46,582 nucleotides of DNA from Rubrivivax sp. (GTDB lineage Bacteria > Pseudomonadota > Gammaproteobacteria > Burkholderiales > Burkholderiaceae_C): contig JAHECD010000024.1 of assembly GCA_024641945.1 (NCBI GenBank), positions 1 through 46,582 of the forward strand, in the 5' to 3' direction. Position numbers and translations under genes: made by a program. Below are positions 18,301-34,737 of the stretch, one piece after another (within the stretch, counting starts at the first letter, position 1; every line of letters begins with the position of its first letter). Below the pieces are notes generated by a model. The model was not told the origin of the DNA. It ran no database searches and saw nothing but the letters and a program-made list of their open reading frames with translations.

Positions 18301-18705
18301 TTGGCCGTCTTCCGGGCTGTAGATGCGCGAGACGCCATAACCCTGCAGGTCGCGGATTTCCGCCGGCACGATCACCCCGCCGCCACCGCCGAAGACCTGC
18401 ACATGTGCGCCGCCGCGTGCACGCAGTAGGTCGACCATGTACTTGAAATATTCAACGTGCCCGCCCTGGTAGCTGCTGATGGCGATGCCCTGCACGTCCT
18501 CCTGCAGGGCGGCGGTGACGACTTCGTCGACCGAGCGGTTGTGGCCGAGGTGGATGACCTCGGCGCCCATGCCTTGCAGGATGCGCCGCATGATGTTGAT
18601 AGCGGCGTCGTGGCCGTCGAACAGCGAGGCCGCGGTGACGAAGCGCACCTTGTGCGTCGGGCGGTACTCGGCGAGGGCCTTGAATTCGGCGGAAAGGTCG
18701 GTCAT
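15385..18705 (-). CDS. icmF: Fused isobutyryl-CoA mutase IcmF
   Basis: 1106 residues with the three-part IcmF architecture. Residues about 15-150 are the cobalamin-binding domain ([18 protein letters not shown], with His32 as probable lower axial ligand; [12 protein letters not shown]). Residues about 200-430 are the MeaI-type G-protein chaperone (P-loop GTGGAGKSS 212-220, [19 protein letters not shown]). Residues about 530-1106 are the mutase TIM barrel. FPYTAGVF places Phe at 598, the position reported to distinguish IcmF from methylmalonyl-CoA mutase, which has Tyr there; [14 protein letters not shown] follows near 743-756. It isomerises isobutyryl-CoA and n-butyryl-CoA using adenosylcobalamin, and some homologues also isomerise isovaleryl-/pivaloyl-CoA. 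The 22-bp palindrome just upstream suggests control by the MerR regulator at 34201. Confidence 0.95.
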
Positions 18706-18740: not shown

Positions 18741-18762
18741 TTGACGTTTACGTCAACGTCAA
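18741..18762. promoter_or_regulatory. LiuR-like palindromic operator, icmF copy
   Basis: Arms TTGACGTT (18741-18748) and AACGTCAA (18755-18762) are perfectly complementary, separated by TACGTC. The site lies 36 bases upstream of the icmF start codon on the minus strand and about 110 bases upstream of coaX. The same arms recur at 34172-34193 and 34716-34737 around a MerR-family gene. MerR regulators typically bind dyads of this size inside promoters. That the MerR protein at 34201 binds here is inference from the shared motif. Confidence 0.75.
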
Positions 18763-18822
18763 CCGGAATGATGCCACCCACGCCTGACATGCGGTCGGCG
18801 CGCCGTTCGGCGCAGGTCGTGG

Positions 18823-18850
18823 TTAACCCGCGGCGGAGAGCCGATACCAT
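18823..18850 (+). promoter_or_regulatory. Candidate sigma70-type promoter of coaX
   Basis: TTAACC (18823-18828) and TACCAT (18845-18850) are separated by 16 bases; each matches the consensus at four of six positions. The -10 ends 22 bases before the coaX start codon. Weak but well placed. Confidence 0.3.
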
Positions 18851-18872
18851 CGGCACCACACGACACCGCGCC

Positions 18873-19640
18873 ATGAGCTTTCTCGCCATCGACATCGGCA
18901 ACACGCGCCTGAAGTGGGCGCAATACGCCTCGCCGCAGCCCGGCGCGGCCGTGCTCGCGCATGGCGCCGCCTTCCTGGAAACCATCGACGGGTTGGCCGA
19001 CGGCGATTGGAAGGGTCTCGTTTCGCCGCACGAGGTGCTCGGCTGCAATGTCGCCGGCGATGCGGTGCGCCGCCGGGTCGAGGAGCAACTCGAACTCTGG
19101 GACGTGAGCCCTCGATGGGTGGTCTCCAGCGCCAAGGCCGGCGGCGTGACGAACGGCTACGACAACCCGGGGCGCCTGGGCGCCGACCGCTTTGTCGCGC
19201 AGGTCGGTGCGCGCTGGCATGTGCTGAACAGCGGCAATGCCCGGCCGTCGCTGGTCGTGATGATCGGTACGGCGGTGACGGTCGACGCACTGGACGCCGA
19301 GGGCCGCTTTCTCGGGGGCCTGATCCTCCCGGGCCACGGCATCATGTTGCGGGCGCTCGAGGCGGGCACGGCCGGCCTGCGCGTGCCGACCGGTGAGGTG
19401 GTCGACTTTCCCACCAATACCAGCGACGGCCTCACCAGTGGCGGCACGTTCGCGATCACGGGGGCCATCGAGCGCCTGCATCGGCACCTGGCTTCACGCT
19501 GCGGCGAAGCGCCGATCACCATCGTCACCGGCGGCGCGGGCTGGAAGGTCGTGCCGCACCTGGGTGTTCCGCACAATTTGATCGATTCACTTCTCTTCGA
19601 CGGGCTGCTGGTGCTGGAGTCGCACCGGCTGGCGCTTTGA
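18873..19640 (+). CDS. coaX: Type III pantothenate kinase
   Basis: 255 residues from ATG 18873. It phosphorylates pantothenate, the first step of coenzyme A synthesis; the type III enzyme is not feedback-inhibited by CoA. The acetate/sugar kinase-like fold is evident: [13 protein letters not shown] (ATP-binding DxGNTxxK, residues 5-16), [13 protein letters not shown] near 100 (GxDR motif with catalytic Asp), [14 protein letters not shown] and [15 protein letters not shown]. In many Burkholderiales coaX follows birA, but here it starts divergently from icmF and stands alone. A link to IcmF through acyl-CoA supply is possible but unproven. Confidence 0.92.
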
Positions 19641-19992
19641 CGCAGGGTTCGGCGGGGCCTGCGCCACCGGCCGCTGCGCAGTCGCACGCCATCCGGCCCG
19701 CAGTCCGGCCAATGCCACTTGCGTACGGCCGATTGATTTGTGCGTGGAATGCGGGCTTCGGCGATCGATGCGGCATTTGCCGGTCTCGATCGCGGCGGTG
19801 GTGACGGCGAGGGGTTTGCACGGCTGCCGTGCGACGTTTGTGTCTTTATCGTCGGCGCAGGCCGAATCCGACGCGGCGCGCGGGCGGATGGGCGGTGCCA
19901 ACGAAAGGCCGGTGTCGAATGGGCCACGGCTTGGCCGTCGGCATGGGGCCATGACCTGACGCGTGGCAGTCCACGCGCGTCGCCGGTCGGTG
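19641..19992. other. Non-coding gap between convergent coaX and hslU
   Basis: About 350 bases with no convincing gene on either strand. It holds a hairpin, GCACGG-CTG-CCGTGC at 19818-19832, without a T-tract. The length is unusual for this compact region; a small RNA or degraded gene cannot be excluded by eye. Confidence 0.4.
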
Positions 19993-21336
19993 CTAGAGCA
20001 CGTAGCGCGAGAGGTCTTCGTTGCGGGACAGCTCGGACAGCCTCGCATCGACGGCGGCGGCATCGATCGTCACCGTCTGCCCGTTGCGGTTGGGCGCATC
20101 GAAGCTCACGTCGTCCAACAGGCGTTCCATCACGGTGGCGAGCCGACGTGCACCGATATTCTCGGTGCGCTCGTTCACGTCGCAGGCGATCTGCGCCAGG
20201 CGTCGCACCGCAGCGGGCTCGATTTCGAGAGTGACGCCCTCGGTGGCGAGCAACGCCTGGTATTGCTTCACCAGGCTGGCATGGGTGCGCGTGAGGATGG
20301 CCTCGAAATCGTCGACCGACAGCGCCGAGAGCTCGACGCGGATCGGGAACCGGCCCTGCAACTCGGGAATCAGGTCGCTCGGCTTGGCGAGGTGGAACGC
20401 GCCGGAGGCGATGAACAGGATGTGGTCGGTCTTCACCATGCCGTACTTGGTGTGTACGGTGGTGCCCTCGACCAGCGGGAGCAGGTCACGTTGCACGCCC
20501 TGGCGGCTGACCTCGGCCTGCCCGCTGTCGGCGCGTGAGGCGACCTTGTCGATCTCGTCGATGAAGACGATGCCGTTGCCTTCGGTGTTGGCGAGCGCGG
20601 CTGCGCGCAGTTCGTCCTCGTTCACGAGCTTGGCGGCCTCTTCCTCGACGAGAAGATTCATAGCCTCGGCGATCTTCAGCTTGCGCTTCTTGCGTCGCTC
20701 CGGGCTCATCTGCGAGAACATGCTCTTGAGCTGCTCGGCCATGTCTTCCATGCCCTGCGGGCCCATGATCTCGAGGGCCGGCTTGGTTTCGGCGACGTCG
20801 ATCTCGATTTCCTTGTCGTCGAGTGCACCTTCCCTCAGGCGCTTGCGCATGACCTGGCGCGCGGTGTTGTCGGACGGCGCGCCGGCCTCCGCGCCGAAGC
20901 CTACCGCCTGCGAGCGCGGAGGCGGCACGAGCGCGTCGAGGATGCGGTCTTCCGCCGCGTCCTCGGCCAGCGTCCGCCGCGTGGCAACCTGACGCTCGCG
21001 CTCGAGCTTGATGGCCACTTCCATCAGGTCGCGGATGATCGTATCCACGTCCTTGCCGACATAACCCACCTCGGTGAACTTGGTCGCCTCGACCTTGACG
21101 AACGGCGCATCGGCCAGCCGTGCCAGCCGGCGCGCGATTTCGGTCTTGCCCACGCCGGTGGGGCCTATCATCAGAATGTTCTTCGGCGTGATCTCGCCGC
21201 GCAACTTGTCGTCAACACGCTGGCGCCGCCAGCGGTTGCGCAGTGCGATAGCCACCGCGCGCTTGGCAGCCTGCTGGCCGACGATGTGACGGTCGAGCTC
21301 GGAGACGATCTCCGCCGGCGTCATGGCGTCGATCAT
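19993..21336 (-). CDS. hslU: ATP-dependent protease ATPase subunit HslU
   Basis: 447 residues. ATG 21336 overlaps the hslV stop (ATGA), so the pair is translationally coupled; ATG 21324 is a second possibility. This is the AAA+ unfoldase of HslUV, which feeds unfolded proteins to the HslV peptidase. Visible parts: N-terminal [17 protein letters not shown], Walker A GPTGVGKT (58-65), GYVGKDVD pore loop (the GYVG aromatic loop), the intermediate I-domain (about 110-240, charged), Walker [10 protein letters not shown], sensor/arginine elements [12 protein letters not shown], and the C-terminal RYVL tail that docks into HslV. Typical length for the family. Confidence 0.97.
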
Positions 21337-21875
21337 TCGAGCGTCTCGATCACGTGCTGCTGGTTCGTATAGATGCAAAGGTCGCCGGCGATCTCGAGGG
21401 ACTTCTTCACCAGTTCGGCCGGCGCCATCTGCGTATGCGCCAGCAGCGCACGCGCGGCGGCCTGTGCATAGGCGCCGCCGGAACCGATGGCCACGACGCC
21501 CTGCTCGGGTTCGAGCACGTCGCCGTTGCCGGTGATGATGAGCGACGCCTCGCGGTCGGCGACGGCAAGCATCGCTTCCAGGCGGCGCAACACGCGGTCG
21601 GTGCGCCAGTCCTTCGTCAACTCGACGGCCGCCCGCACCAGGTGGCCCTGGTGTTTCTCCAGCTTCGCCTCGAAGCGCTCGAACAGCGTGAACGCATCGG
21701 CGGTAGCGCCAGCAAAGCCTGCGAGCACCTGGTCGCGGTACAGCTTGCGAACCTTGCGGGCACTCGCCTTGACGACGATGTTGCCCAAAGTCACCTGGCC
21801 ATCGCCGCCCATGGCGACCAAGGCGCCGCGCCGCACGCTCAGGATCGTCGTGCCATGGAAGACCAGCTCGCTCAA
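21333..21875 (-). CDS. hslV: ATP-dependent protease peptidase subunit HslV
   Basis: 180 residues, the threonine peptidase of HslUV. After removal of the N-terminal octapeptide (MSELVFHG) the nucleophile Thr9 becomes Thr1 (TTILSVRRG). The proteasome-beta-like core includes [12 protein letters not shown] and [14 protein letters not shown]. The start is TTG 21875: its TTGA overlaps the stop of the upstream STAS gene, and AAGGTG lies about 9 bases before. The ATG at 21856 is out of frame, so no ATG start exists before the processing site. Expected to be co-expressed with hslU. Confidence 0.95.
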
Positions 21876-23653
21876 ACCCGTCTCACCTGCACCTTGGCGT
21901 GTTCATTGATGCCCATGGCGCCGAAGAACAGCGCCACCAACCGGTGGGCCTCCATGAACTGGATCGTCCGGTTTTCCTGCTGTTTGTTGAGGACCCAGTT
22001 CAACAGGTCACCCGCGGCGACGAAGTCGACCCGGATCAGGCGCGAACACGACACCGTGACGACAGGCGCATCGCGCAGGTCCTCGTCGAGCCGGTCCAGC
22101 GTGGGGCCGATGTCGCCGATGAGCTGGCCCGACAGTTCCACGCTGGCCACCTGTACCGCGCGCGCGTCGTCGATCAGGCTCGACTCCATGAAACTGGTCG
22201 AGACCTCGCTCATCACCGAGAGCGTTGGAGACCGAGTGGAATGGCCAGAGTCGCTGACGCGGACGACGCAGCGTGTCGGCTCCCACGACGGTGGCGATAC
22301 CTCGTAGGTCACGCAATAGTCGATCGCAGCCTCGTCGAATTGGTCCGCCCGGTTCACCAGGCGCAATGCGTCCAGCCGCGCTAGCCAGAAAGCGGGGTCG
22401 GCATCGCGTACGCCGGTTGGTGCAGCTTCGGACAGGACGCCGAAGAGCTGCTCGCCGCCGATCCACTGCATCTCGAGAAGTTGACCGGCCCAGACGCGGA
22501 ACAGGCCTGACAGGTGCGTGGAGGCTTCGGCGTCGATGCGGCAAACGCCGGACCAGTCGAAGACCCAAGGCAGCGGCATCTGCAGCGTCTGCGAGCGCAA
22601 GCGCGCAACGGCGTCGACGTCGAGCGTATCCGGGCAGACCCAGCCGACGTCGCCCGTCACCCGGGCGGGACGAGGCCGTTCGTCGGCCACGGAATCGGCG
22701 ACGAGCTTCGGCAGCGAGAACCACTGGGGCGCCGACCAGCCGAAATGCTGTGCGTAGTCCAGCGCAAGGCTCTCGAATCGCTGTTGCTGGCCGGTGGCTC
22801 GGTACAGGTCGAAGACGACCAACCACGTTTCCGCATGATTTGCGCGCGATCCGGTGGGGCCGATGAGTTGCTGCAGCGCCCGTTCGCAATGCGCGAAGTC
22901 GGCATTCGCGAAAGCGATCACCGCTTCATCGAGATCGGGGTCGTGCACGATTTCGCTGACCTCGACCTCGACGTCGAAATTCTGCCTCTGGGAAGCCGGA
23001 GCCCGGGCGTCGAGCGATACCGGCGCGAGCGGGCCGAGCCCGGCGCCCATGACCACCGGCGATGGCGACGGCGCGTCGGTCGATGGTTCGAAGTCGATCA
23101 ACGGCGGCAGCGCCGGAAGCTGGTCCGGATCAGGGGGTGGCGGCTCGTCGAGGCGCGCAGCCGGCGTCATTTTCGGCAGCGGATCGAGCCCGCCCTGGCG
23201 GGTGCCGGGCGCTGCACGGCCCGCGAGCCCGGCCGGCTCCGTGGGCGCCCCCATGTAGCCGGACGAGCGCGAACTGCGGCCCAGACCGCCCGTGTCGCCG
23301 ACCATCTCGCGTTCGATATGGTCGATCTTGGCTTTGACCCCGCCTTCCTGGCGGGCCACGCTGTCGGACATGCGGGCTTCCGAATCGTCCAGCCGCGACG
23401 AGGTGCCGAGTGCGGCGAGTTGCTCGGGCGTCAACCCCTCGCGACGTACCTTGCGCAGGATGTCGAATTCGCGCTTGCGGACAAAGTCATTGCGCCGCTT
23501 GCGCTCGACCATCGCCTTGAGCTCCGACTTTTCGAGCTCGATGTCGCGCCCTTCATCGTGGCGCGAATTCACGTCGGCCCATTCGGTCGTCGGGTTGGCG
23601 ACGAACCTCACCACCTTGCGCAGGAAACTCTCGTTGTCCTTGGGTTCGGTCAT
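21872..23653 (-). CDS. STAS-domain-like protein of the dksA-hslVU cluster
   Basis: 593 residues. The N-terminal 75 residues are highly charged ([20 protein letters not shown], then [32 protein letters not shown]). Residues about 100-240 are a low-complexity Pro/Asp-rich linker, and about 250-330 a helical repeat-like part ([22 protein letters not shown]). The C-terminal half looks like two STAS-like beta-alpha units, the last being [23 protein letters not shown] to [33 protein letters not shown], which matches the anti-sigma-factor-antagonist style ending. Such proteins occur at this locus in other Burkholderiales (recalled, not checked). Role unknown; partner-switching or stress signalling is inferred from the STAS fold. 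Confidence 0.7.
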
Positions 23654-23734
23654 GACGGGTCGGTCTGGGCGCAGCGGTGCGGTTCGGTACGTCGCGCAAC
23701 GGCGCCCGCCAGCTCGGGTGACGGGAGTCTTCGA

Positions 23735-24487
23735 TCAGTCACCGAACATCTTCTGCTTGAGTTCGCGCCGCTGTTGCGCCTCGAGCGACAGCGTGGCGGT
23801 GGGCCGCGCAAGCAGGCGCGGCAGGCCGATCGGCTCGCCGGTCTCGTCGCAGAAGCCGTATTCACCGGTGTCGAGCCGGGTCAGGGCTTGACTGATCTTC
23901 TTGAGAAGTTTGCGTTCGCGGTCTCGGGTGCGCAACTCCAGCGCGTGTTCTTCCTCGATCGTGGCGCGGTCCGCCGGATCGGGCACGATGGAGGTGTCTT
24001 CACGCAGATGCTCGGTGGTTTCGCCGGCATTGGACAGAAGGTCGTCCTTTTGCCCCTGCAGCGTCGCGCGGAAGAAATCGATCTGCTTGTCGTTCATGTA
24101 CTCGCTGTCGGGCATCGCGAGCAGTTCGCCTTCGGACAGGTCACGCCCGGCCTTGGTCTTCCAGGCGTTGGCCAGCTTGGGGTCCGCCTTGGCGGCGGAT
24201 TTCACGGGATCCATGGGTTCGTAGGAAGCTTTTGCCGCAGTCTTGGCGGGCCCGAACCGGTCGGAGAACCGATGGTGTGACGGGGCCGGTGCCGCCACTG
24301 CGGCCGGGGTTGGAAGAGGAGCCTGTGCAGCGCCCTTTGCCGAAGACTTCTTTGGCGCGGGCGGTGCCGCCGCCTTGGACGGTGCTTTGGCGGGTGACTT
24401 GGCCGCCGGTTTGGCCGCGGCAGCCTTGGTGGCGGGCTTGGCCGCAGTGCCTACCTTGGCGGCAGACTTGGCTGGAGGCTTGCTCAC
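23735..24487 (-). CDS. dksA: RNA polymerase-binding transcription factor DksA (single-Cys type, long N-terminal tail)
   Basis: 250 residues from GTG 24487, with AGGAG 6 bases upstream. The last 145 residues are DksA: coiled coil with tip motif DPADRA (Asp170, Asp173, Ala175), then the globular zinc-finger region YGFCDETGEPIGLPRLLARP. Only the first of the four cysteine positions is Cys (C213); the others are Thr216, Ser234 and Ala237 at the normal 3/18/3 spacing, so zinc binding is not expected. The first 90 residues are a Lys/Ala/Pro-rich, histone-H1-like tail not present in enterobacterial DksA (151 aa). It acts with ppGpp in the RNA polymerase secondary channel to control stable-RNA and biosynthetic promoters. 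The gene lies 163 bases after the COG0523 GTPase. Confidence 0.95.
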   Translation of the reverse strand: MSKPPAKSAAKVGTAAKPATKAAAAKPAAKSPAKAPSKAAAPPAPKKSSAKGAAQAPLPTPAAVAAPAPSHHRFSDRFGPAKTAAKASYEPMDPVKSAAKADPKLANAWKTKAGRDLSEGELLAMPDSEYMNDKQIDFFRATLQGQKDDLLSNAGETTEHLREDTSIVPDPADRATIEEEHALELRTRDRERKLLKKISQALTRLDTGEYGFCDETGEPIGLPRLLARPTATLSLEAQQRRELKQKMFGD

Positions 24488-24576
24488 TAATTACTCCTGG
24501 CCGGCTTGGCACGCATTCAATGGCGATATAGCCGTCGTTGCCGACGGGCGATGCCCATAGCCGGGTGGCTTCGGGC

Positions 24577-24588
24577 GCGCGGATTGTA
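24577..24588 (-). promoter_or_regulatory. Candidate dksA promoter -10 with GC-rich discriminator
   Basis: On the minus strand TACAAT (24583-24588) matches the -10 consensus at five of six positions. It is followed directly by CCGCGC, a GC-only discriminator of the kind found in promoters inhibited by ppGpp/DksA. No convincing -35 is seen at 16-18 bases. The position, about 95 bases before the dksA start, allows an independent promoter and autoregulation. Confidence 0.35.
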
Positions 24589-24650
24589 GCCACGCATTTC
24601 ATGCCGGGGTACGCAGTACAGGCCAACAAGCCCGGCGCGCGGGTGACACA

Positions 24651-25682
24651 TTACACGAGGCACTGCTCCAGCCCCTGCAGGAGCACGTCCTTCGGCAGGT
24701 CCAGGCCGATGAACACCATCTTGCTCTGCTTTTTCTCGCCGGGCGCCCATTTCGGCCCGAGGTCGCTGCCCATCAGCTGGTGGACGCCTTGGAATACCAC
24801 CTTGCGGTCGCTGCCTTTCATGAACAGGACGCCTTTGTAGCGCAGCATCTTCGGCCCGTAGACTTGGACGATCGCGCCGAGAAAATCTTCGAGCTTGGCC
24901 GGGTTGAAAGCCCGGTCGGCCCGGAAGACGAAAGACTTCACGTCGTCGTCGTGGTGATGATGGTGTGGGTGGTCGCAGTCCTCGCCGTGCTCGTGGTCAT
25001 GATCGTGGGACCCGTGTGCGTCGTCGGAATTCAGGAATTCCGGATCGATGTCGAGCTTGGCGTTCAGGTTGAAGCCCCGCAGGTCGAAGACCTCGGCGAG
25101 CGCCACCTCGCCGAAATGCACCGCCTTCTGTGGTGCCCGCGGATTCATGTGCTTGAGGCGGTGCACCAGAGCATCGACCGAGTCCTTGGCGACGAGGTCG
25201 GTCTTGCTGATGAAGATCTGGTCGGCAAAACCGACCTGCCGGCGCGCTTCCTGGCGTGTATCGAGCTGGCTTTCGGCGTGTTTGGCATCGACGAGCGTCA
25301 GGATCGAGTCCAGTTGGTAGCTCTCGGCGACCTCGTCGTCCATGAAGAAGGTCTGCGCCACCGGACCCGGGTCGGCCAGACCGGTGGTCTCGATGACCAC
25401 CCGATCGAAATCGATCTCGCCCTTGCGCTTTTTCTCCGCCAGGTCCGCCAGGGTCGTGCGCAGGTCCTCGCGGATCGTGCAGCAGACGCAGCCGTTGTTC
25501 ATCTGGATGATCTGCTCCTGGGTATCGGCGACGAGGATGTCGTTGTCGATGTTCTCCTCGCCGAACTCGTTTTCGATCACGGCGATCTTCTGGCCGTGCG
25601 CTTCGCCGAGGACCCGCTTGAGCAGCGTGGTCTTGCCGGAGCCGAGGAAGCCGGTGAGGATGGTGGCGGGGATCAGGGGCAT
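24651..25682 (-). CDS. COG0523 (CobW/ZNG1-like) metal-handling GTPase
   Basis: 343 residues from ATG 25682. The G3E GTPase domain has Walker A GFLGSGKTT (11-19), VIENEFGE, the metal-binding CxCC motif NGCVCCT (Cys65, Cys67, Cys68), VIETTGLADP and SKTD (guanine specificity). A histidine/aspartate-rich loop follows (about 228-260, including HDHDHEHGEDCDHPHHHHH in part), then the CobW C-terminal domain. COG0523 members insert or hand over metals, often Zn; the His loop fits a zinc metallochaperone such as ZNG1/YjiA/YeiR-type proteins. Cobalamin synthesis is less likely because no cob genes are nearby. It lies upstream of the cysteine-poor dksA on the same strand. Confidence 0.9.
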   Translation of the reverse strand: MPLIPATILTGFLGSGKTTLLKRVLGEAHGQKIAVIENEFGEENIDNDILVADTQEQIIQMNNGCVCCTIREDLRTTLADLAEKKRKGEIDFDRVVIETTGLADPGPVAQTFFMDDEVAESYQLDSILTLVDAKHAESQLDTRQEARRQVGFADQIFISKTDLVAKDSVDALVHRLKHMNPRAPQKAVHFGEVALAEVFDLRGFNLNAKLDIDPEFLNSDDAHGSHDHDHEHGEDCDHPHHHHHDDDVKSFVFRADRAFNPAKLEDFLGAIVQVYGPKMLRYKGVLFMKGSDRKVVFQGVHQLMGSDLGPKWAPGEKKQSKMVFIGLDLPKDVLLQGLEQCLV

Positions 25683-25816
25683 GGTGCGGGGAGGCCCAGT
25701 GGGGCTGCGTCTGTCAGGCAATCAGGGTATGTCGGGGCTCACGACCGAGTTTCAAGGCGTCCTGAGCGGCGACCGGGTCGAGTATTCTCGCCCCTAACGT
25801 CACTTTCGGCACCACT

Positions 25817-26719
25817 GTGTCAGATCCCCAGCCCGGTCGACCTACTCGCCCAGCGTCCTTGCGCGGCGTCGAGAAGGCCGCAGAGAAGAGGTCCTTGTTC
25901 GAGCGCGTGGTCGAGTTCATCTCGCCCGGCCCGGATTCGCGCGACGAGCTGATCGAGTCGCTCGCCGATGCCGAGCAGCGCGAGTTGATCGAGCCCGAGT
26001 CGCGCGCGATGCTCGAGGGCGTGATCCGCATGGCCGACATGACGGCGGGCGATGTGATGGTCGCTGCCCCGCGGATGGACCTGCTGGACATCAATGCGCC
26101 CTACGACGACCTTCTGGCGAGCGTCATCGAGACCGCGCACTCGCGCTTTCCGGTGTATGACGGCGAACGCGACAACATCATCGGCATCCTGATGGCCAAG
26201 GACCTGCTGAAGTTGCAGCGCGCCCCCGAGCTGAACCTGCGTACGCTGCTGCGTCCGGCGGTCTTCGTGCCCGAGAGCAAGGGCCTGAACGAGTTGCTGC
26301 GGGATTTCCGGTCCAACCGCAACCATCTGGCGCTGGTCGTCGACGAGTTCGGCAGCACGGCCGGGCTCATCACGATCGAGGACGTGCTCGAAGAAATCGT
26401 TGGCGAGATCGAAGACGAATTCGACGAGCGCGACGGCGAAAGCGGCATCGTCTCGCTGGCCGATGGCACCTACCGCGTGGCCGGCGATGCCGACATCGCC
26501 GCCGTCAACCAGAGCTTCGGCGTCGATCTGCCGGAGATCGAGTTCGACACCATCGGGGGTCTCGTGGCCGACCAGCTCGGTCGTGTGCCGCGGCGAGGCG
26601 AGTCGGTCGATGCGGGTGGTTTGCGGTTCTCGGTGATGCTCACGCGTGGCGGAGCGGTGCGCTGGTTCCGCGTCGCCCGCATGCCGCCGGGCAGCCCCGC
26701 GGACGAAGGCGCGGCTTGA
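25817..26719 (+). CDS. corC: CBS-domain transporter-associated protein CorC (YbeX)
   Basis: 300 residues from GTG 25817; no obvious ribosome binding site. After a charged N-terminus (RSLFERVVEFISPGPDSRDELIESL) come two CBS domains (about 65-185; MTAGDVMVAAPRMDLLDI and HLALVVDEFGSTAGLITIEDVLEEIVGEIEDE) and a C-terminal CorC_HlyC domain (about 205-285, DGTYRVAGDADIAAVNQSFGVDL and TIGGLVADQLGRVP). CorC is associated with Mg/Co efflux or ribosome maturation in enterobacteria. Its TGA overlaps the TTG of lnt (TTGA), the usual ybeX-lnt pairing. Confidence 0.92.
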   Translation: MSDPQPGRPTRPASLRGVEKAAEKRSLFERVVEFISPGPDSRDELIESLADAEQRELIEPESRAMLEGVIRMADMTAGDVMVAAPRMDLLDINAPYDDLLASVIETAHSRFPVYDGERDNIIGILMAKDLLKLQRAPELNLRTLLRPAVFVPESKGLNELLRDFRSNRNHLALVVDEFGSTAGLITIEDVLEEIVGEIEDEFDERDGESGIVSLADGTYRVAGDADIAAVNQSFGVDLPEIEFDTIGGLVADQLGRVPRRGESVDAGGLRFSVMLTRGGAVRWFRVARMPPGSPADEGAA

Positions 26720-28272
26720 CGCGTAGGCCACCGCGGCGCGCCGGGCCGCGGCGCTGGGCCGAACCGTGGGGATTGGCCGCCGCTGGCGCGCTGCAGACGA
26801 TCGCCTGTGTCCATACGGTCTGGTGGTTCCTCGCGCCGCTGGCCGTGGCGCTTCTGGTGTGGCGCCTGCAGGCCGCAGGACCCGGTCGCGCCGCGCTGCT
26901 CGGTTGGGCGTTCGGCACTGGCTGGTTGCTCGCGGGGGTCTGGTGGCTTTTCATCAGCATGCACCGCTATGGCGGGCTGCCTGCCTGGATGGCGGCCGCT
27001 GCGGTCGCAGCACTGGCGGCGGCGCTTTCGCTGTACCTGGCCGCCGCCTGCGCAGCCTATGCTCGCTGGCGTCATGGCCGCCTGTGGGCCGACGCGCTGC
27101 TGTTTGCCGCATTCTGGTTTCTGGCCGAGTGGGCACGTGCCGTGCTGTTCACCGGCTTTCCGTGGGTTGCCATCGGCTATACCCAGATCGACGGGCCGCT
27201 GGCGGCGATCGCGCCTTGGGTGGGGGTGTATGGCATTGGAGCAGCCGTGGCCTGGACCGGGGCGTTGCTCGGCGCGGCGGCGGCCGCTGCGCCGCGCCGC
27301 GGGCTTGCAGCGGCTGCCGGTGCAGTGGCCGTGCTCTTTGCGGCCCCGGCCTTGCTGGGCACGCGGGACTTCACCTCCAGCGCCGGGTCACTTTCGGTCG
27401 CGCTCGTGCAGACCAATGTGGCCCAGGACGAAAAGTTCGCCGTCGAGCGCATGCCCGATGCGATGGCCTGGCTGCTGCACTCCATGACCGATGCACGCGC
27501 AGCCCTGGTGGTCGCACCGGAGACGGCGGTACCGTTGCTGCCCGCGCAGCTGGCGGAGTTCGCGCCCGGCTGGTGGCCATCTGTGGTGGCGCACTTCGGT
27601 CGACCTGGGCGGTCGGCGCTGCTCGGGCTGCCCCTCGGCAGCTACGAGGCCGGGTACACGAATTCGGTCGCCGGGTTGTCGGCGGCGCCTCTGTACCGCT
27701 ACGACAAGCAGCATCTGGTGCCGTTTGGCGAATTCATCCCGACGGGTTTCCGCTGGTTCACCGAAGCGATGAACATACCGCTCGGCGACTTTTCGCGCGG
27801 CCCGCTGAATGCCCCTTCGTTCGTCGTCGACGGGCAGCGGGTGGCCCCCAACGTCTGCTACGAAGACCTGTTCGGCGAAGAACTGGCGGTGCGCTTCAAC
27901 GACGTATCGACGGCGCCGACGATCCTCGCGAACGTGAGCAACATCGGCTGGTTCGGCAACACCGAGGCGTTGCCGCAGCACCTGAACATCTCGCGCCTGC
28001 GTGCGCTCGAACTTCAGCGCCCGATGCTGCGGGCCACCAACACCGGCGTCACCGCCGTGATCGACCATCGTGGCCACGTGGTGCAGCAGTTGCCGACCTT
28101 CACGCGCGGTGTGCTGCAGGGCGTGGTCGAGGGGCGCCATGGCGTCACACCGTTCGTCCGCTGGGCCGGGCGTGCCGGGTTGTGGCCGCCGTTCGCGCTG
28201 GCCCTCGCGGTCGTGCTGTCCATGGCTGTGACGGGCCGGCAGGCGCGGGCTGCCAGGGCGTCGCGGCGCTGA
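26716..28272 (+). CDS. lnt: Apolipoprotein N-acyltransferase
   Basis: 518 residues starting at TTG 26716, overlapping the corC stop by four bases. It transfers an acyl chain from phosphatidylethanolamine to the N-terminal cysteine of lipoproteins in the inner membrane, the last maturation step. The N-terminal half holds about six hydrophobic segments; the periplasmic nitrilase domain follows. The triad is visible: Glu in VVAPETAVP (near 275), Lys in YDKQHLVPFGEFIP (near 337) and Cys in NVCYEDLFG (near 384). WFGNTEALPQHLNISRLRALELQRP is the family's conserved region, and a last membrane segment closes the protein (LWPPFALALAVVLSMAV). Within-window clients would include the lipoprotein at 44178. 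Confidence 0.95.
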   Translation: MTRRPPRRAGPRRWAEPWGLAAAGALQTIACVHTVWWFLAPLAVALLVWRLQAAGPGRAALLGWAFGTGWLLAGVWWLFISMHRYGGLPAWMAAAAVAALAAALSLYLAAACAAYARWRHGRLWADALLFAAFWFLAEWARAVLFTGFPWVAIGYTQIDGPLAAIAPWVGVYGIGAAVAWTGALLGAAAAAAPRRGLAAAAGAVAVLFAAPALLGTRDFTSSAGSLSVALVQTNVAQDEKFAVERMPDAMAWLLHSMTDARAALVVAPETAVPLLPAQLAEFAPGWWPSVVAHFGRPGRSALLGLPLGSYEAGYTNSVAGLSAAPLYRYDKQHLVPFGEFIPTGFRWFTEAMNIPLGDFSRGPLNAPSFVVDGQRVAPNVCYEDLFGEELAVRFNDVSTAPTILANVSNIGWFGNTEALPQHLNISRLRALELQRPMLRATNTGVTAVIDHRGHVVQQLPTFTRGVLQGVVEGRHGVTPFVRWAGRAGLWPPFALALAVVLSMAVTGRQARAARASRR

Positions 28273-28334
28273 GCCGCCGACGGATGCAGCCGGGCCCGTA
28301 AACTCAAGGGCTTTTGCGGACCGCAAGGCCCCTC

Positions 28335-29267
28335 ATGCTGACCTTCCAGCAGATCATCCTCAAACTCCAGTCCTATTGGGACGCACAGGGCTGTGCGCTG
28401 CTGCAGCCCTACGACATGGAAGTGGGCGCCGGCACGAGCCACACGGCCACCTTCTTGCGCGCACTCGGCCCAGAGCCGTGGAAGGCCGCCTACGTGCAGC
28501 CGAGCCGTCGCCCGAAGGATGGGCGCTACGGCGACAACCCGAATCGGCTGCAGCACTACTACCAGTACCAGGTGGTGCTCAAGCCAGCGCCCGCCGACAT
28601 CCTCGAGCTGTACCTCGGTTCGCTCGAGGCACTCGGCTTCGACCTGAAACAGAACGACATCCGCTTCGTCGAGGACGATTGGGAGAACCCCACGCTCGGC
28701 GCCTGGGGCCTGGGGTGGGAGGTCTGGCTCAACGGCATGGAGGTGACGCAGTTCACCTACTTCCAGCAGGTGGGCGGCATCGATTGCCGGCCGCTGACCG
28801 GCGAGATCACCTACGGCCTCGAGCGCCTGGCGATGTACCTGCAAGGCGTCGAGAACGTCTACGACCTCGTCTGGACGCAGGGCGCCGACGGTCCGCTGAA
28901 GTACCGCGACGTCTACCACCAGAACGAAGTCGAGCAGAGCACGTACAACTTCGAGCACAGCGACGTGGAGTTCCTGCTCGGTGCCTTCGGCGCACACGAA
29001 AGGCAGGCGAAATTCCTGATGGAGCAGCAACTCGCATTGCCCGCCTACGAGCAGGTGCTCAAGGCCGCCCACACGTTCAACCTGCTCGACGCTCGTGGCG
29101 CGATCAGCGTCACGGAGCGGGCTGCGTACATCGGGCGCATCCGCAATCTCGCGCGCGCCGTGGCGCAGAGTTATCTCGACAGCCGTCTGCGCCTGGGTTT
29201 CCCGATGGCGCCGCGGGCCTGGGCCGACGAAGTGACGGCAGCACTCGAGCAGAAGAAGGCGGCATGA
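28335..29267 (+). CDS. glyQ: Glycyl-tRNA synthetase alpha subunit
   Basis: 310 residues from ATG 28335, with AAGG 6 bases upstream; an in-frame TTG at 28314 is less likely. It is the catalytic alpha chain of the two-subunit (class IIc-type) GlyRS. The sequence is highly conserved: [50 protein letters not shown] (motif 2), [22 protein letters not shown] and [18 protein letters not shown]. It activates glycine with ATP. Its stop overlaps the glyS start (ATGA). Confidence 0.97.
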
Positions 29268-31387
29268 ACCAAATGACCACCAGGAACCTGCTCATTGAAC
29301 TGCTCGTCGAAGAACTGCCGCCCAAGGCGCTGAAGAAGCTGGGCGAGGCCTTCGGGGCCTTGCTGCTGGCGGGGCTGCGGGCGCAGGGACTGGCCGGCGA
29401 ACATGCCGCGCTGACCGTGTTTGCCACTCCACGCCGCTTGGCGGCGCACATCAGCGCGGTGCTCGGCGCCGCGCCCGACAAGGCGGTATCGAACAAGCTG
29501 ATGCCCGTCGCCGTGGGTCTTGCGGCCGACGGCACGCCGACTCCCGCACTGATGAAGAAGTTGGCCGCGCTCGGTGCCGACGCGTCGGCGTTGCCGCATC
29601 TGCGCCGCCAGCTCGACGGCAAGGCCGAGGCGTTGTTTCTCGACACCATGCAGACCGGTGCAACGCTCGCGGCCGGCCTGCAGAAGGCGCTCGACGAGGC
29701 GATCGGCAAGCTGCCGATTCCCAAGGTCATGCTGTACCAGCTTTCCGACGGCTGGACCGGCGTTAACTTCGTTCGCCCGGCGCATGGGCTGGTGGCGCTG
29801 CACGGGGCGGACGTGGTGCCGGTGTCGGCGTTGGGTTTGCGGTCAGGCCGCCAGACCCAGGGCCATCGATTCGAGGCCGCCATGGCGCCCGTGGTGCTGC
29901 AGGACGCCGACCACTATGCGCGCCAGCTCCAGGACCAGGGTGCCGTGACCGCCAGCTTCGAGGCGCGGCGCGGCGAGATCGTGCGCCAGCTGCAAGCGGC
30001 CGCGGCCCGGGAAGGACTGGCGCCGATCGACGATGACGCCTTGCTCGACGAAGTGACCGCGCTGGTCGAGCGGCCGAACGTGCTGCGATGCGAATTCGAA
30101 CCCGAGTTTCTGGCCGTCCCGCAGGAATGCCTGATTCTCACGATGAAGGCGAATCAGAAATATTTCCCGCTGCTCGACGCCGGTGGCCGCCTGACGAACA
30201 AGTTCCTGCTCGTGAGCAACATCACTCCGGCCGACCCGGCGCGTGTGATCCAGGGCAACGAGCGGGTCGTGCGCCCGCGCCTGGCCGATGCCAAATTCTT
30301 CTTCGACCAGGACCGCAAGCGCACGCTGGCATCGCGTGCGCCGGGGCTGGCCAAGGTGGTCTACCACGGCAAACTCGGCACGCAGGGCGAGCGCACCGAC
30401 CGCGTGCGCTCGATCGCCCGCGCCATCGGCCAGCAACTCGGCGCCGACCACGGCGGCCTGGCGCTGGCCGACCTGGCCGACGAGGCGGCCACCCTGTCCA
30501 AGGCCGACCTGCTGACGGACATGGTCGGTGAGTTCCCCGAGCTGCAGGGCACGATGGGCGCCTACTACGCACGCCACGACGGCCTGCGCGAGTCGATCGC
30601 CGAGGCGATCGAGGACCACTACAAGCCCCGCTTTGCCGGCGACGCACTGCCGCGTGGAGACGTCGGCATCGTCGTCGCGCTGGCCGACAAGCTCGAAACG
30701 CTGGCCGGGCTCTTCGGCATCGGCCAGCTGCCCACCGGGGACAAGGACCCCTTCGCGCTGCGGCGCCACGCGCTGGGCGTGATCCGCATGCTCGTCGAGC
30801 GGCACCTGCCGCTCAACCTGCCGCATCTGGTGGCCACTGCGTTCAAGGCCTTCCCGCCCGGGCACGGGCAGGCACAGGCCGAAGTGGCGCACTTCATGTT
30901 CGAACGTCTCGTCGGCTACCTGCGCGAGCTCGGCTACAGCGCGCACGAAGTCGATGCCGTGGTCGCCTTGCGCCCCGACATCTGGGCCGATCTGCCACGC
31001 CGGCTGGCTGCGGTGCGGGCCTTCGCGGCCCTGCCCGAGGCGCCGGCCCTGTCGGCGGCCAACAAACGCGTGGGCAATATCCTGAAGAAGTCGGACGACG
31101 CGCCATCGGTCGAGATCGCGCCGGCGCTGCTGACCGAGGACGCGGAACGTGCACTGCACGCAGCGCTCGGTGCAGCGGCCCCGGTCGCCGACGCCGCATT
31201 TGCTGCGGGCGACTACACCGCGTCGCTCCAGGCCCTCGCCACGCTGAAGGGGCCGGTGGATGCCTTCTTCGACCAGGTGATGGTCAATGCGGACGACGTT
31301 GCGCTGCGCGCCAACCGGATCGCACTGTTGCGTGCCTTGCACACATCGATGAACCGCGTGGCCGATCTGTCGCGACTGGCCGCGTGA
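29264..31387 (+). CDS. glyS: Glycyl-tRNA synthetase beta subunit
   Basis: 707 residues from ATG 29264, coupled to glyQ by ATGA. The N-terminal [22 protein letters not shown] and [28 protein letters not shown] are diagnostic. The middle is the HD-like domain ([28 protein letters not shown]), and the C-terminal DALR-type anticodon-binding part ends [25 protein letters not shown]. It is needed for tRNA-Gly recognition. Length is close to the E. coli subunit (689). Confidence 0.97.
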
Positions 31388-31418
31388 TCGGGGCGGCGCT
31401 GACCGGATAATCGGTGCC

Positions 31419-32006
31419 GTGAAGCTCATCATCTTCGGCCGCGACGGCATCCTCAACGTCTACCGCGACGACCACGTCAAGGCGCCGGAGGAGTGGCAGC
31501 CGATCCCCGGCGCGCTGGAGGCCATGTCGCGCCTCAACCATGCCGGCTGGCACGCGGTGGTCGCCACCAACCAGGCTGGCATCGGGCGCGGAATGATCGA
31601 CATGGCCACGATCAATGCGGTTCACGCCCACATGATCCGCCTGGCGCAGGCGCTGCGCGCGCGCATCGACGCGGTGTTCTTCTGCCCGCACACGCCCGAG
31701 GATCAGTGCACCTGCCGCAAACCGCTGCCCGGCATGATGCTCGACATCGGCATGCGCTACGGCTTCGACCTGCGCAACGTGCCGATGGTGAGCGACAACC
31801 TGCGCGACATGCAGGCGGCCCAGGCGGCCGGCTGCATGCCGCACCTGGTGATGACCGGTCGCGCGGCACACCTCGAGGAGGCACACCTGCAGCACATCCT
31901 CAACCTCGTTCCGTCGACCCAGGTGCACACCAGCCTGACCGCGTTTTCGGAACACCTGCTCGGGTCGGGCAAGGCCGTCAATTCCGTGCCCGGGGAGCTG
32001 GCCTGA
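31419..32006 (+). CDS. gmhB: GmhB-like HAD phosphatase lacking the nucleophilic Asp
   Basis: 195 residues from GTG 31419, 31 bases after glyS. It aligns with D,D-heptose 1,7-bisphosphate 7-phosphatase (histidinol-phosphatase-type HAD): N-terminal MKLIIFGRDGILN, VVATNQAGIGRGMIDM (motif II), the zinc loop CPHTPEDQCTCRKPLPGMM, and SDNLRDMQAA (motif IV). Family members have DRDGT at motif I, where the first Asp is the phosphorylated nucleophile; here it is Gly7 (GGC), while the general acid/base Asp9 and the Zn ligands remain. Motif IV has Ser in place of the usual Gly. GmhB would act in ADP-heptose synthesis for lipopolysaccharide. Whether this protein is active is doubtful. The context, glyQS-gmhB-plsC, is typical for the family in this order. 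Confidence 0.8.
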   Translation: MKLIIFGRDGILNVYRDDHVKAPEEWQPIPGALEAMSRLNHAGWHAVVATNQAGIGRGMIDMATINAVHAHMIRLAQALRARIDAVFFCPHTPEDQCTCRKPLPGMMLDIGMRYGFDLRNVPMVSDNLRDMQAAQAAGCMPHLVMTGRAAHLEEAHLQHILNLVPSTQVHTSLTAFSEHLLGSGKAVNSVPGELA

Positions 32007-32788
32007 TGCACGTCGTCTGGGCACTGCGATCGGCGGCCTTCATCCTCTGGCTGGCGGTGACCGTGGTGCCGTGGGCGCTTGCCGTGCTGGTGCTGTCGAT
32101 CTTCGTTCGTGGCGCGCCGGTGTACTGGGCCTGTGCAGGCTGGCTGAAGGCGGCGGTCTGGGGCGCGCGCGTGATCTGCGGCGTGCGCTACCGAATCCAA
32201 GGCATGGACAACGTGCCCACGGCCGCCGACGCCACGTCGGCCGTGCTTCTGGCATCGAAGCACCAGAGCACGTGGGAGACCTTCGCCTACCCGGCATTGA
32301 TGCCGCACCCGCTGGCCTACGTGTTCAAGCGCGAGCTGCTCTACATCCCCTTTTTCGGCTGGGCGATGGCCCGCATGGACATGATCCACATCGACCGTTC
32401 CAAGCGCACGGAAGCCTGGAACAAGGTGGCGGCGCAGGGCAAGCGGCTGTTTGCGCAGGGGGTGTGGGTGATCATGTTCCCGGAAGGCACGCGCATCGAG
32501 CGCGGACAGCGTGGCACGTACAAGACCGGGGCTTCGCGACTGGCCATCGATGCCGGCGTGCCGATCGTCCCCATTGCCGCCACCAGCGCACGCTGCTGGC
32601 CGCGCAAGAGCTTCTTGCTTCGCCCGGGAGTGGTCGACATCTCCATCGGCAAGCCGATCGCATCCGCCGGGCGCAAGCCGGACGAACTGATGCGCGAGGT
32701 CGAGACCTGGATCGAGGCCGAAATGCAACGGCTCGACCCCGAGGCCTATCCGCAAGCCGTGGCTGCGGTCGGCGCGGTGCAGGTGTAA
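32006..32788 (+). CDS. plsC: 1-acyl-sn-glycerol-3-phosphate acyltransferase (PlsC-like)
   Basis: 260 residues; ATG 32006 shares one base with the gmhB stop (TGATG). An N-terminal membrane segment (AAFILWLAVTVVPWALAVLVLSIFV) is followed by the PlsC acyltransferase core: KHQSTWETFAYP (the catalytic His with Glu instead of Asp in HX4D/E), FKRELLYIPFFGWAM, and IMFPEGTRIERGQRG (glycerophosphate-binding FPEGT). PIVPIAATSARCWPRKS completes the fold. It acylates lysophosphatidic acid to phosphatidic acid in the inner membrane. Confidence 0.9.
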   Translation: MHVVWALRSAAFILWLAVTVVPWALAVLVLSIFVRGAPVYWACAGWLKAAVWGARVICGVRYRIQGMDNVPTAADATSAVLLASKHQSTWETFAYPALMPHPLAYVFKRELLYIPFFGWAMARMDMIHIDRSKRTEAWNKVAAQGKRLFAQGVWVIMFPEGTRIERGQRGTYKTGASRLAIDAGVPIVPIAATSARCWPRKSFLLRPGVVDISIGKPIASAGRKPDELMREVETWIEAEMQRLDPEAYPQAVAAVGAVQV

Positions 32789-32800
32789 GGCGAGGTCGCG

Positions 32801-33718
32801 ATGCCCCGGCCAGCGACGGCGCCTGACCCTGCGCAACTTTCGCTGTTCGCCGACGCCTCCCAGGGCGTCGCGTCCGCGGGGCTCTCGGCGCCCGTCGCCG
32901 CGCTGCCCACTTGGCCTGCCGCGCCGGCGGTCACACCCATGGCGGCGCCTTGGCCTGCGGCCACCTTTCGCCACCCCAACGCCCAGCGCGAAGTCCACCT
33001 CGACGGTCACCGTGTCGGTTATGAATTTCGCCGCGCGCGGCGCAAGAGTATCGGTTTCGTCGTGGGCCCCGACGGTCTGAGTGTCAGCGCGCCGCGCTGG
33101 GTGGGTGTGGGCGAGGTCGAGTCGGCACTGCGCGAAAAGGCGCGCTGGATCCTGCGCAAGCTGCAGGAGCAGCACGAGCGCTCGCGCCGCCTGCAACAGG
33201 CCCGCGTCGACTGGCGCGACGGTACGGCCATCCCCTTCCTGGGCGAAACCGTCATCGTCGTGATCGATCCGCGTGCCACGGGGGCCATGTTGAACACGGC
33301 GGCCGATGCGCTGCCCGGCGTGCCGCGGCTCACCCTTCACGTGGGCCTGCCGCAGGGGGCGGCGCCGGACCAGCTGCGCGATACCGTGCAGAGCTGGCTC
33401 CAGCGCCAGGCGCGACGTGTCTTCGAGGAACGCTGCGCCGTCTTCGCGCCGCGGCTGGGCGTGTGCATACGCCGCTTGTCGCTCAGCTCGGCAGCCACGC
33501 GCTGGGGCAGTGCAAGCGCCGATGGATCGATCCGTCTCAACTGGCGCCTGGTGCACTTTGCCTTGCCGGTTATCGACTATGTCGTCGCGCACGAACTGGC
33601 GCACTTGCGCGAGATGAACCACAGTGACGCGTTCTGGGACGTGGTGCGCTCGGTGATACCCAATTTCGAGTCGGCGCGCGGCACCCTGCGAACCGAAGTG
33701 CTGCCGGTCTTCGATTGA
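32801..33718 (+). CDS. YgjP-type (WLM/SprT-like) zinc metallopeptidase family protein
   Basis: 305 residues from ATG 32801, 12 bases after plsC. The first 55 residues are Ala/Pro-rich and disordered. The DUF45/YgjP domain follows: VGYEFRRARRKSIGFVVGPDGLSVSAPRWV, WILRKLQEQHE, RRLSLSSAATRWGSASADGSIRLNWRL and the metal site VVAHELAHLREMNHSDAFW (HExxH with a third His 5 residues later). YgjP/WLM proteins are predicted zinc-dependent hydrolases, in some cases linked to restriction-modification or DNA-damage contexts; the substrate is not known. Probably the end of the glyQS-gmhB-plsC run. Confidence 0.85.
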   Translation: MPRPATAPDPAQLSLFADASQGVASAGLSAPVAALPTWPAAPAVTPMAAPWPAATFRHPNAQREVHLDGHRVGYEFRRARRKSIGFVVGPDGLSVSAPRWVGVGEVESALREKARWILRKLQEQHERSRRLQQARVDWRDGTAIPFLGETVIVVIDPRATGAMLNTAADALPGVPRLTLHVGLPQGAAPDQLRDTVQSWLQRQARRVFEERCAVFAPRLGVCIRRLSLSSAATRWGSASADGSIRLNWRLVHFALPVIDYVVAHELAHLREMNHSDAFWDVVRSVIPNFESARGTLRTEVLPVFD

Positions 33719-34171
33719 CCGGTCAGCCCCCCCATAGGGGGTCCCTAGATTTATGGATGCAAGGGCGCCGCAGGCACGCGAGACTGTGGGCACGCTGTCT
33801 TCATGCACATCAGGAGGCAGGGAGGGCGGTACCGCGAGCGGTCCGCAGTCGTCAGGGCCGAGGCGGCGCCAATCCGGCGCCGGCCTCGCGCAACTGCGTC
33901 GAGGCGCATCGCCGGCGCCACTCAACGGCCCCATCGCAGTCCTTTCGCTCACGGGACAGGCCCAGCGCACACCCTGAACCGACCGCCGACGGCACCATGG
34001 CGACGGCGCGGTCGATTTGGGCCGGGGGCGGCCGCGTGAGTCGCGATCAGCAGCACCCGACAAAGAAGCCAACGCTCCCTGCGTGACCCGCCCTTCTTCC
34101 CAGGTGGCGGGCATCGCTTGGACCCGTCGGTGGAGCCCGGTGTTCTGAAGGTCGTTGGCCATGGGCTTACA
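33719..34171. other. Long gap before the MerR gene, no gene seen
   Basis: About 450 bases without a convincing gene. Open frames on both strands have shadow-like composition. It opens with the C-run/G-run repeat listed separately and ends at the MerR operator. It may be an untranslated leader or the remains of a lost gene. Confidence 0.45.
33727..33741. repeat. Perfect C5-ATA-G5 inverted repeat
   Basis: Seven C residues (33727-33733), ATA, then five G residues (33737-33741), forming a 5-bp GC hairpin or dyad, 8 bases after the metallopeptidase stop. It could be a terminator stem (no T-run follows) or a C-run/G-run operator similar in style to CsoR/RcnR-family metal-sensor sites. No such regulator gene is adjacent. 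Confidence 0.5.
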
Positions 34172-34193
34172 TTTACGTTTACGTCAACGTCAA
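34172..34193. promoter_or_regulatory. LiuR-like palindromic operator, merR copy
   Basis: Arms TTTACGTT (34172-34179) and AACGTCAA (34186-34193) flank TACGTC; one mismatch (third base) compared with the other two sites. It ends 7 bases before the MerR start codon, a position suited to autoregulation. Confidence 0.75.
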
Positions 34194-34200
34194 TCCGCCC

Positions 34201-34683
34201 ATGGTCGCCGCGACCCGCCCGCCCGCCCGTACGTCCCCCCTTGCCAAGGCCCGCGGTGCTGTTGCACGCCAGAGGGAGGCCGCGCGGACGTTCACGATCA
34301 CCGAACTCGCGCAGGAGTTCGACATCACCGCCCGCGCGATCCGCTTCTACGAGGATGTGGGGCTGCTGACGCCGCAACGCGCCGGGCGCAACCGGGTGTA
34401 TACGCAGCGCGACCGCACCCGATTGAAGCTCACGCTGCGAGGCAAGCGACTGGGGCTGAGCCTGCTGGAAATCCGCCAGCTCGTCGAGATGTACGACTCG
34501 CCCTCGGATACCGCGCTGCAGCTGCAGGCGTTCCTGGCGGTGCTGGCGGCCCACCGCGGCCAGCTCGAGCAGCAGCGTGAGGACATCGAGATCACGCTCG
34601 CCGAGATCGCGCAGCATGAAGAGCGCTGTCGAACGCTGCTGGCGGCTGCAGGCCACCGTGCGGCGAAGGTGCGGCGGCGCTGA
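34201..34683 (+). CDS. liuR: MerR-family regulator, LiuR-like
   Basis: 160 residues from ATG 34201. After a 28-residue basic leader, a MerR winged helix-turn-helix begins: FTITELAQEFDITARAIRFYEDVGLLTPQRAGRNRVYTQRDRTRLKL (about 31-77). A dimerisation helix follows, LGLSLLEIRQLVEMYDS to LAEIAQHEERCRTLL. There are no cysteines in the metal-site positions of CueR/MerR, consistent with an acyl-CoA- or small-molecule-responsive member. LiuR-type MerR regulators control leucine/isovalerate catabolism in Proteobacteria, and the next gene is isovaleryl-CoA dehydrogenase. It is flanked on both sides by 22-bp palindromes, which points to autoregulation. The liuR name is by context and similarity, not proof. 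Confidence 0.85.
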   Translation: MVAATRPPARTSPLAKARGAVARQREAARTFTITELAQEFDITARAIRFYEDVGLLTPQRAGRNRVYTQRDRTRLKLTLRGKRLGLSLLEIRQLVEMYDSPSDTALQLQAFLAVLAAHRGQLEQQREDIEITLAEIAQHEERCRTLLAAAGHRAAKVRRR

Positions 34684-34715
34684 AACCGACGCCGGACACC
34701 GGCCCGACGCTATCA

Positions 34716-34737
34716 TTGACGTTTACGTAAACGTCAA
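34716..34737. promoter_or_regulatory. LiuR-like palindromic operator, ivd copy (perfect 22-bp dyad)
   Basis: Arms TTGACGTT (34716-34723) and AACGTCAA (34730-34737) around TACGTA, making the whole 22 bp self-complementary. TTGACG can serve as a -35, with AAGAAT (34740-34745) as a -10 at 18 bases, so the dyad would fill the spacer, the classic MerR-family promoter geometry. It lies 66 bases upstream of isovaleryl-CoA dehydrogenase. Confidence 0.8.

Follow-up and report, generated by a model that had tools for sequence, protein, structure and literature searches.

What connects icmF, the gene of a fused isobutyryl-CoA mutase, with a gene of leucine breakdown in the 46,582-nucleotide stretch of Rubrivivax sp. 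DNA analysed here (contig JAHECD010000024.1; hereafter the window)? The same 22-bp dyad stands before icmF, before a MerR-family regulator gene and before ivd, the gene for isovaleryl-CoA dehydrogenase. We propose, with a probability of about 0.68, that these dyads are operators of a LiuR-type repressor, placed at its own gene (liuR), at leucine-breakdown genes and at icmF, and that IcmF replaces the lower valine route. The features concerned are:

15385..18705, minus strand: icmF, fused isobutyryl-CoA mutase/GTPase of 1106 residues (NF045497, 1935.7 bits against a cut-off of 1500)
18741..18762, no strand: predicted LiuR operator before icmF, TTGACGTTTACGTCAACGTCAA (window and assembly dyad scans; kept upstream of icmF in relatives)
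34172..34193, no strand: predicted LiuR operator before liuR with one arm mismatch, TTTACGTTTACGTCAACGTCAA (window and assembly dyad scans)
34201..34683, plus strand: MerR-family regulator of 160 residues, LiuR orthologue by context (PF13411, PF09278 and PF00376 above cut-off)
34711..34716, plus strand: -10-like hexamer TATCAT, its final base shared with the operator (offset enriched in relatives too)
34716..34737, no strand: predicted LiuR operator before ivd, TTGACGTTTACGTAAACGTCAA (window and assembly dyad scans)
34804..35982, plus strand: ivd (liuA), isovaleryl-CoA dehydrogenase (best solved relatives 4kto, 4o5m and 1ivh, all isovaleryl-CoA dehydrogenases)

A scan of the window with up to three mismatches returned these three dyads and no others, which bears out the sequence-only reading that had listed them as matching copies. 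Dinucleotide-preserving shuffles of the window gave a mean of 0.08 matches and reached three in 0 of 100 cases, in keeping with its judgement that chance recurrence is very unlikely. Between the first dyad and the start codon of icmF (18705 on the minus strand) lie 35 bases. The second stops 7 bases short of the 160-codon MerR open reading frame (ORF), while the third starts 32 bases past that ORF and ends 66 bases 5' of the ivd ORF.

The window's IcmF has 4xc6 ('Isobutyryl-CoA mutase fused') as best solved relative, and combines B12-binding, MeaB-type GTPase and mutase domains in a single chain that scores above the curated cut-off. The specificity residues of IcmF are Phe/Gln instead of Tyr/Arg; with the numbering used, the second of the two did not fit the alignment. 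For the 160-residue MerR protein, none of 13 NCBIfam MerR-type models scored above cut-off, and the closest solved relatives are weak (CueR).

Scanning the whole 5.0-Mb assembly with at most one mismatch yielded four dyads: the three in the window and one on another contig (C58:6026-6047). The fourth lies 41 bases 5' of a 541-residue carboxyl transferase ORF, followed by an acyl-CoA dehydrogenase ORF, and the best solved relative of the 541-residue protein is 3u9r, methylcrotonyl-CoA carboxylase beta (liuB-like). Such a genome scan had been suggested earlier as a check for dyads at unrelated genes; at this stringency there are none, and the extra copy faces a liuB-like gene. The single dyad with two mismatches falls within a 131-codon ORF, recognisable as ribosomal protein S9. 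At up to three mismatches the dyad has 22 matches compared to 5 for a reversed-pattern control, and the weak tail is therefore partly chance.

All four genomic copies carry ACGT in the central bases (nACGTn), with three ACGT cores spaced 6 bp, and the motif is therefore better written TTGACGTTnACGTnAACGTCAA. Each copy also contains the 16-bp dyad TTGACGTnnACGTCAA twice, overlapping and offset by 6 bp, with 0-1 mismatch (control 0), so that two LiuR dimers may sit on opposite DNA faces. The 16-bp dyad is used alone by some relatives. Elsewhere in the window's genome the 16-bp dyad occurs twice more, each time with one mismatch (G000:C155:76131-76146 and G000:C164:31868-31883; reversed-pattern control 0).

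The link between operator and regulator was followed through 150 genomes of the same family, representing 141 genera; those relatives that carry names are Comamonadaceae- and Oxalobacteraceae-type Burkholderiales. The 22-bp dyad was found in 89 of the 150, with the reversed-pattern control at 0 in every row. A LiuR orthologue (at least 127 bits) is present in 123, and an icmF match in 101, 87 of these above the model cut-off. Three icmF genomes (G019, G094 and G104) do not enter the upstream count, the 5' side of the gene being missing or at a contig end. Upstream of the remaining 98 icmF genes, an operator was found in 82 cases, 68 in the 22-bp form (at most two mismatches) and 14 in the 16-bp form (at most one mismatch), with neither form in 16; reversed patterns occurred in 1/98. 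Where there is a LiuR orthologue, 81 of 87 genomes have the icmF operator, compared to 1 of 11 where there is none (Fisher's test, 5.9e-9). Because the icmF operator and the LiuR orthologue go together in this way, icmF can be assigned to the predicted LiuR regulon, and the comparison thus supports the earlier suggestion of one regulon comprising liuR, ivd and icmF. LiuR is predicted to bind the dyad.

The same arrangement was seen in a second set of 80 icmF loci from named genomes, which partly overlaps the 150-genome set: once four loci with fewer than 300 bases upstream had been dropped, 58 of 76 had the operator (control 0/76). Beyond the family, at class level, 7 of 28 icmF loci (L100, L101, L103, L104, L106, L107 and L109, from five families) have an upstream dyad with 0-3 mismatches, and the other 21 show none at up to four mismatches. 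The ivd gene follows the MerR gene in the window and is close to the orthologue in many relatives, if not at every one of 30 loci examined (L067-L096). Operators likewise stand beside the MerR orthologue in many relatives, and none was found in 14 of these 30 loci.

A different regulator could bind the dyad, with the MerR gene a mere neighbour. One genome, G063, fits this idea: its icmF operator is exact, yet its MerR match is weak. The association of the icmF operator with the orthologue and the operators beside the orthologue in so many relatives, the 14 empty loci notwithstanding, argue the other way, and we consider a different regulator highly improbable. Two genomes (G011, locus L084; G143, locus L075) have operators at liuR and ivd and none found upstream of icmF; here the link between icmF and the operator is lost or was never made.

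How the predicted LiuR acts can be approached through promoter geometry. With the 68 icmF-facing 22-bp operators as anchor, the pattern TANNNT occurs at offset -5 in 27/68, compared to a mean of 0.49 elsewhere, its final T coinciding with the first base of the operator. Between -50 and 0 no further offset has the pattern in at least 5/68, a wider scan to +59 leaves -5 as the sole TANNNT-rich offset, and on the mirror side the pattern reaches 5 at no offset. A TTG, as in a -35 box, is not enriched upstream of the -10-like hexamer among the 68. Under the same strict count, other targets gave 9/16 for ivd, 5/21 for liuR (each of these two sets counting one place twice and including the window itself), 2/5 for liuB and 0/7 for a short-chain dehydrogenase gene described below, with 0 on the mirror side throughout; many of the strict-count misses at these operators are CATAAT or GATAAT.

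The hexamer thus directly adjoins the operator on its gene-distal side, which would place the start point inside the operator, suiting a repressor; the geometry fits one that blocks transcription start. The sequence-only reading had instead placed the copy before ivd in a MerR-type promoter spacer. This we reject, since TATCAT abuts the gene-distal edge there as well, with relatives alike and TTG not enriched. A classical MerR activator working between -35 and -10 boxes would agree with the MerR-family domains, and TTGACG at the operator edge looks like a -35 box, but the enriched hexamer lies at the wrong edge, and for Shewanella the passages available from PMC3223726 present LiuR as a repressor. 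We regard such an activator as quite unlikely.

Why a leucine-type repressor should govern icmF is suggested by the distribution of mmsB, the 3-hydroxyisobutyrate dehydrogenase gene of the standard valine route (TIGR01692 above cut-off). TIGR01692 scores are bimodal (at least 376 or at most 232 bits) and lie above cut-off in 39 of the 150 family genomes. Only four genomes have both genes (G013, G044, G066 and G096), with 97 having icmF only, 35 mmsB only and 14 neither (Fisher's test, 1.8e-18); icmF is therefore present in 97 of the 111 genomes without mmsB. Within the 123 genomes with LiuR the respective counts are 4, 85, 30 and 4. Since icmF and mmsB so seldom occur together, icmF probably takes the place of the standard valine route. 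In the window's genome itself the best 3-hydroxyisobutyrate dehydrogenase score, 201.9 bits, stays below the cut-off of 291.6, and HIBCH gave no match at E<=1e-60; MMSDH is present.

Trees of rpoB were built with 123 of the 134 genomes that have this gene. On the DNA tree the icmF and mmsB traits change 20 and 15 times, against each other; 18 independent pairs gave 9.5 opposite, 0.1 same and 8.4 without difference (median p 0.0039), and the likelihood ratio is 55.2 (p 2.9e-11). Outside the family, 50 genomes with ivd comprise 1 with both genes, 23 with icmF only, 12 with mmsB only and 14 with neither (p 8.9e-4). Taking one genome per family (n=42), the numbers are 0, 19, 11 and 12 (p 3.3e-4).

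Shared ancestry, or a model that misses divergent mmsB, might nevertheless create an apparent exclusion. On the trees, both traits occur in clusters, and relatives of TIGR01692 below cut-off occur nearly everywhere (146/150 at E<=1e-40). The gap in TIGR01692 scores, the independent pairs opposing each other on the DNA tree and the recurrence of the pattern in families outside this one (f1) all speak against such an artefact, which appears unlikely.

LiuR control of the mms cluster in those genomes that have mmsB was also considered and is rejected: in the mms clusters of 20 genomes with both mmsB and LiuR, taken from the 39 with mmsB, there was no 22-bp dyad with up to four mismatches and no 16-bp dyad with up to two (0/20 clusters). 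Replacement by icmF would therefore also switch the regulator.

Several results weigh against the proposal of a LiuR repressor with IcmF as substitute. The icmF operator is absent from six genomes that do have a LiuR orthologue (G009, G011, G044, G083, G143 and G144), and G063 has the operator without an orthologue. In the window's own genome, ivd is the only target with a clear -10-like hexamer abutting the operator. The less resolved rpoB protein tree, with 9 pairs, gives a median p of only 0.06, a value that on its own would favour the artefact discussed above. At class level, 229 genomes show no unconditional exclusion of icmF and mmsB (2 with both, p 0.54), and the ivd condition of the test outside the family was picked after this null result. 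MMSDH (above cut-off in 141/150) and HIBCH (109/150) do not track mmsB; being common regardless of it, both were rejected as markers of the standard route, and the valine argument is thus drawn from mmsB alone.

In the mechanism we envisage, a LiuR-type repressor would occupy the dyads when branched-chain intermediates are scarce, blocking the liuR, ivd, liuB and icmF promoters. Build-up of a branched-chain intermediate, presumably a CoA thioester, would release it. According to the passages available from PMC10481361, IcmF rearranges isobutyryl-CoA to butyryl-CoA. In the cell it would convert valine-derived isobutyryl-CoA to n-butyryl-CoA for beta-oxidation, replacing the 3-hydroxyisobutyrate route. 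Repression by LiuR, release by such an effector and valine flux through IcmF are predictions.

The same passages of PMC10481361 report that IcmF also acts on pivalyl-CoA and isovaleryl-CoA. It could then stand under LiuR control for the sake of leucine or pivalate, interconverting isovaleryl-CoA and pivalyl-CoA so that pivalate enters the Ivd pathway or the isovaleryl-CoA pool is buffered, with valine not the main substrate. That the operators in the window's genome precede leucine-pathway genes agrees with this, but mutual exclusion of icmF and the valine gene mmsB is not predicted by it, and we think this role doubtful as the principal one. For IcmF as a valine enzyme, we lean slightly towards a broader statement: that it forms the lower valine pathway in much of this beta-proteobacterial family and in other gammaproteobacterial families, and has been swapped with mms many times. 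Valine catabolism would thereby come under the leucine repressor LiuR, with butyryl-CoA and then acetyl-CoA as product, not propionyl-CoA, and with vitamin B12 needed for valine use.

The dyad also points to further regulon members in relatives. A survey of 30 dyad loci, one per genome (L007-L036), found as neighbours ivd, liuR, the methylcrotonyl-CoA carboxylase beta gene, icmF, a polyphosphate kinase 2 (PPK2) gene with icmF and, at seven loci (L013, L015, L022, L030, L032, L035 and L036), an ORF of 252 residues. The latter is a short-chain dehydrogenase in all three cases tested; a comparison with solved structures, made for one of these ORFs, gave matches to 3-hydroxyacyl-CoA dehydrogenases, among them the human type 2 enzyme. 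This is an isoleucine-pathway type of enzyme, and the ORF would be an additional regulon member in relatives.

At the icmF loci of 18 genomes (L042, L046, L056, L057, L059-L063, L256, L268, L278, L297, L302, L303, L306, L307 and L312), an ORF of 277-310 residues lies between operator and icmF. The one tested against Pfam, from G132, is a PPK2; the ORF at L033 matches it at 72%, and the others are grouped with PPK2 by length and position alone. A ppk2-icmF operon under LiuR is a candidate arrangement. At L027 (G114, 1536-2516) a second PPK2 protein of 327 residues is encoded directly behind an exact dyad.

The operator before icmF sits between icmF and a divergent type III pantothenate kinase gene (window 18741-19640), whose TTG start, as listed, lies within the operator. 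The kinase match begins only at residue 47, and the start is therefore probably the ATG near 18873. Behind ivd, the window continues with:

36287..37216, plus strand: carbonic anhydrase ORF (NF007756 above cut-off; the match covers residues 91-285, start uncertain)
37224..39014, plus strand: aceK, isocitrate dehydrogenase kinase/phosphatase, on the same strand as ivd (NF002804 above cut-off)
39570..40748, plus strand: thiolase, behind aceK on the same strand (TIGR01930 above cut-off)

A carbonic anhydrase or aceK gene is also found near liuR or ivd in relatives (L007, L023, L072, L079, L092 and L094). Shewanella LiuR is reported to control aceBA in the passages available from PMC3223726.

A LiuR regulon, with a regulator of the MerR family, was reportedly described for Ile/Leu/Val utilisation in Proteobacteria by Kazakov et al. 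in 2009. LiuR is an established regulator of Ile/Leu/Val genes in the portions available from PMC3223726, PMC5343134 and PMC7238569, the first of which calls the Shewanella protein a MerR-family repressor. The present, predicted regulon shares with it a MerR-family regulator, an operator at the regulator's own gene as well as at leucine-breakdown genes, and a repressor geometry. It differs in having icmF as target: in the same portions neither icmF nor an isobutyryl-CoA mutase is named among the targets of LiuR, and no word starting with icm or isobutyryl occurs in the main text of PMC5343134. A literature search found no paper naming both icmF and LiuR, with the RegPrecise tables and the 2009 regulon paper, which may list icmF, outside its reach; nor did titles and abstract openings report icmF in place of mmsB. 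What would be new is therefore a known regulon with icmF as target and the proposed pathway exchange, neither of which we found described.

IcmF is a well studied enzyme to which the literature passages available assign no cellular pathway; the LiuR regulon and the exclusion of mmsB offer one. If this holds, a valine pathway scored as incomplete for lack of mmsB would in fact be whole, would depend on B12 and would avoid propionyl-CoA, and metabolic reconstructions would change. The window's protein matches IcmF of Cupriavidus metallidurans (4xc6) over its full length with all fused domains, and differs in being tied here to branched-chain amino acid breakdown by operator and distribution, a role absent from the passages of PMC10481361. 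The standard route is represented by the mmsA/hbdH valine operon of Cupriavidus necator H16, likewise the lower valine pathway of a beta-proteobacterium. Excerpts from PMC6572756 state that hbdH and mmsA3 are needed on valine, and that deleting hbdH, the mmsB homologue, abolishes growth on valine and isobutyrate; this route is mostly missing from icmF-bearing genomes of the family. The closest parallel to the proposed flux is found in Streptomyces albus, where, in the passages available from PMC8176718, a mutase bypass that takes valine-derived isobutyryl-CoA via butyryl-CoA is proposed and the mutase is strongly induced by valine. In that actinobacterium the bypass serves as an extra supply of polyketide precursors, whereas here it is proposed to substitute for a missing gene under the control of LiuR.

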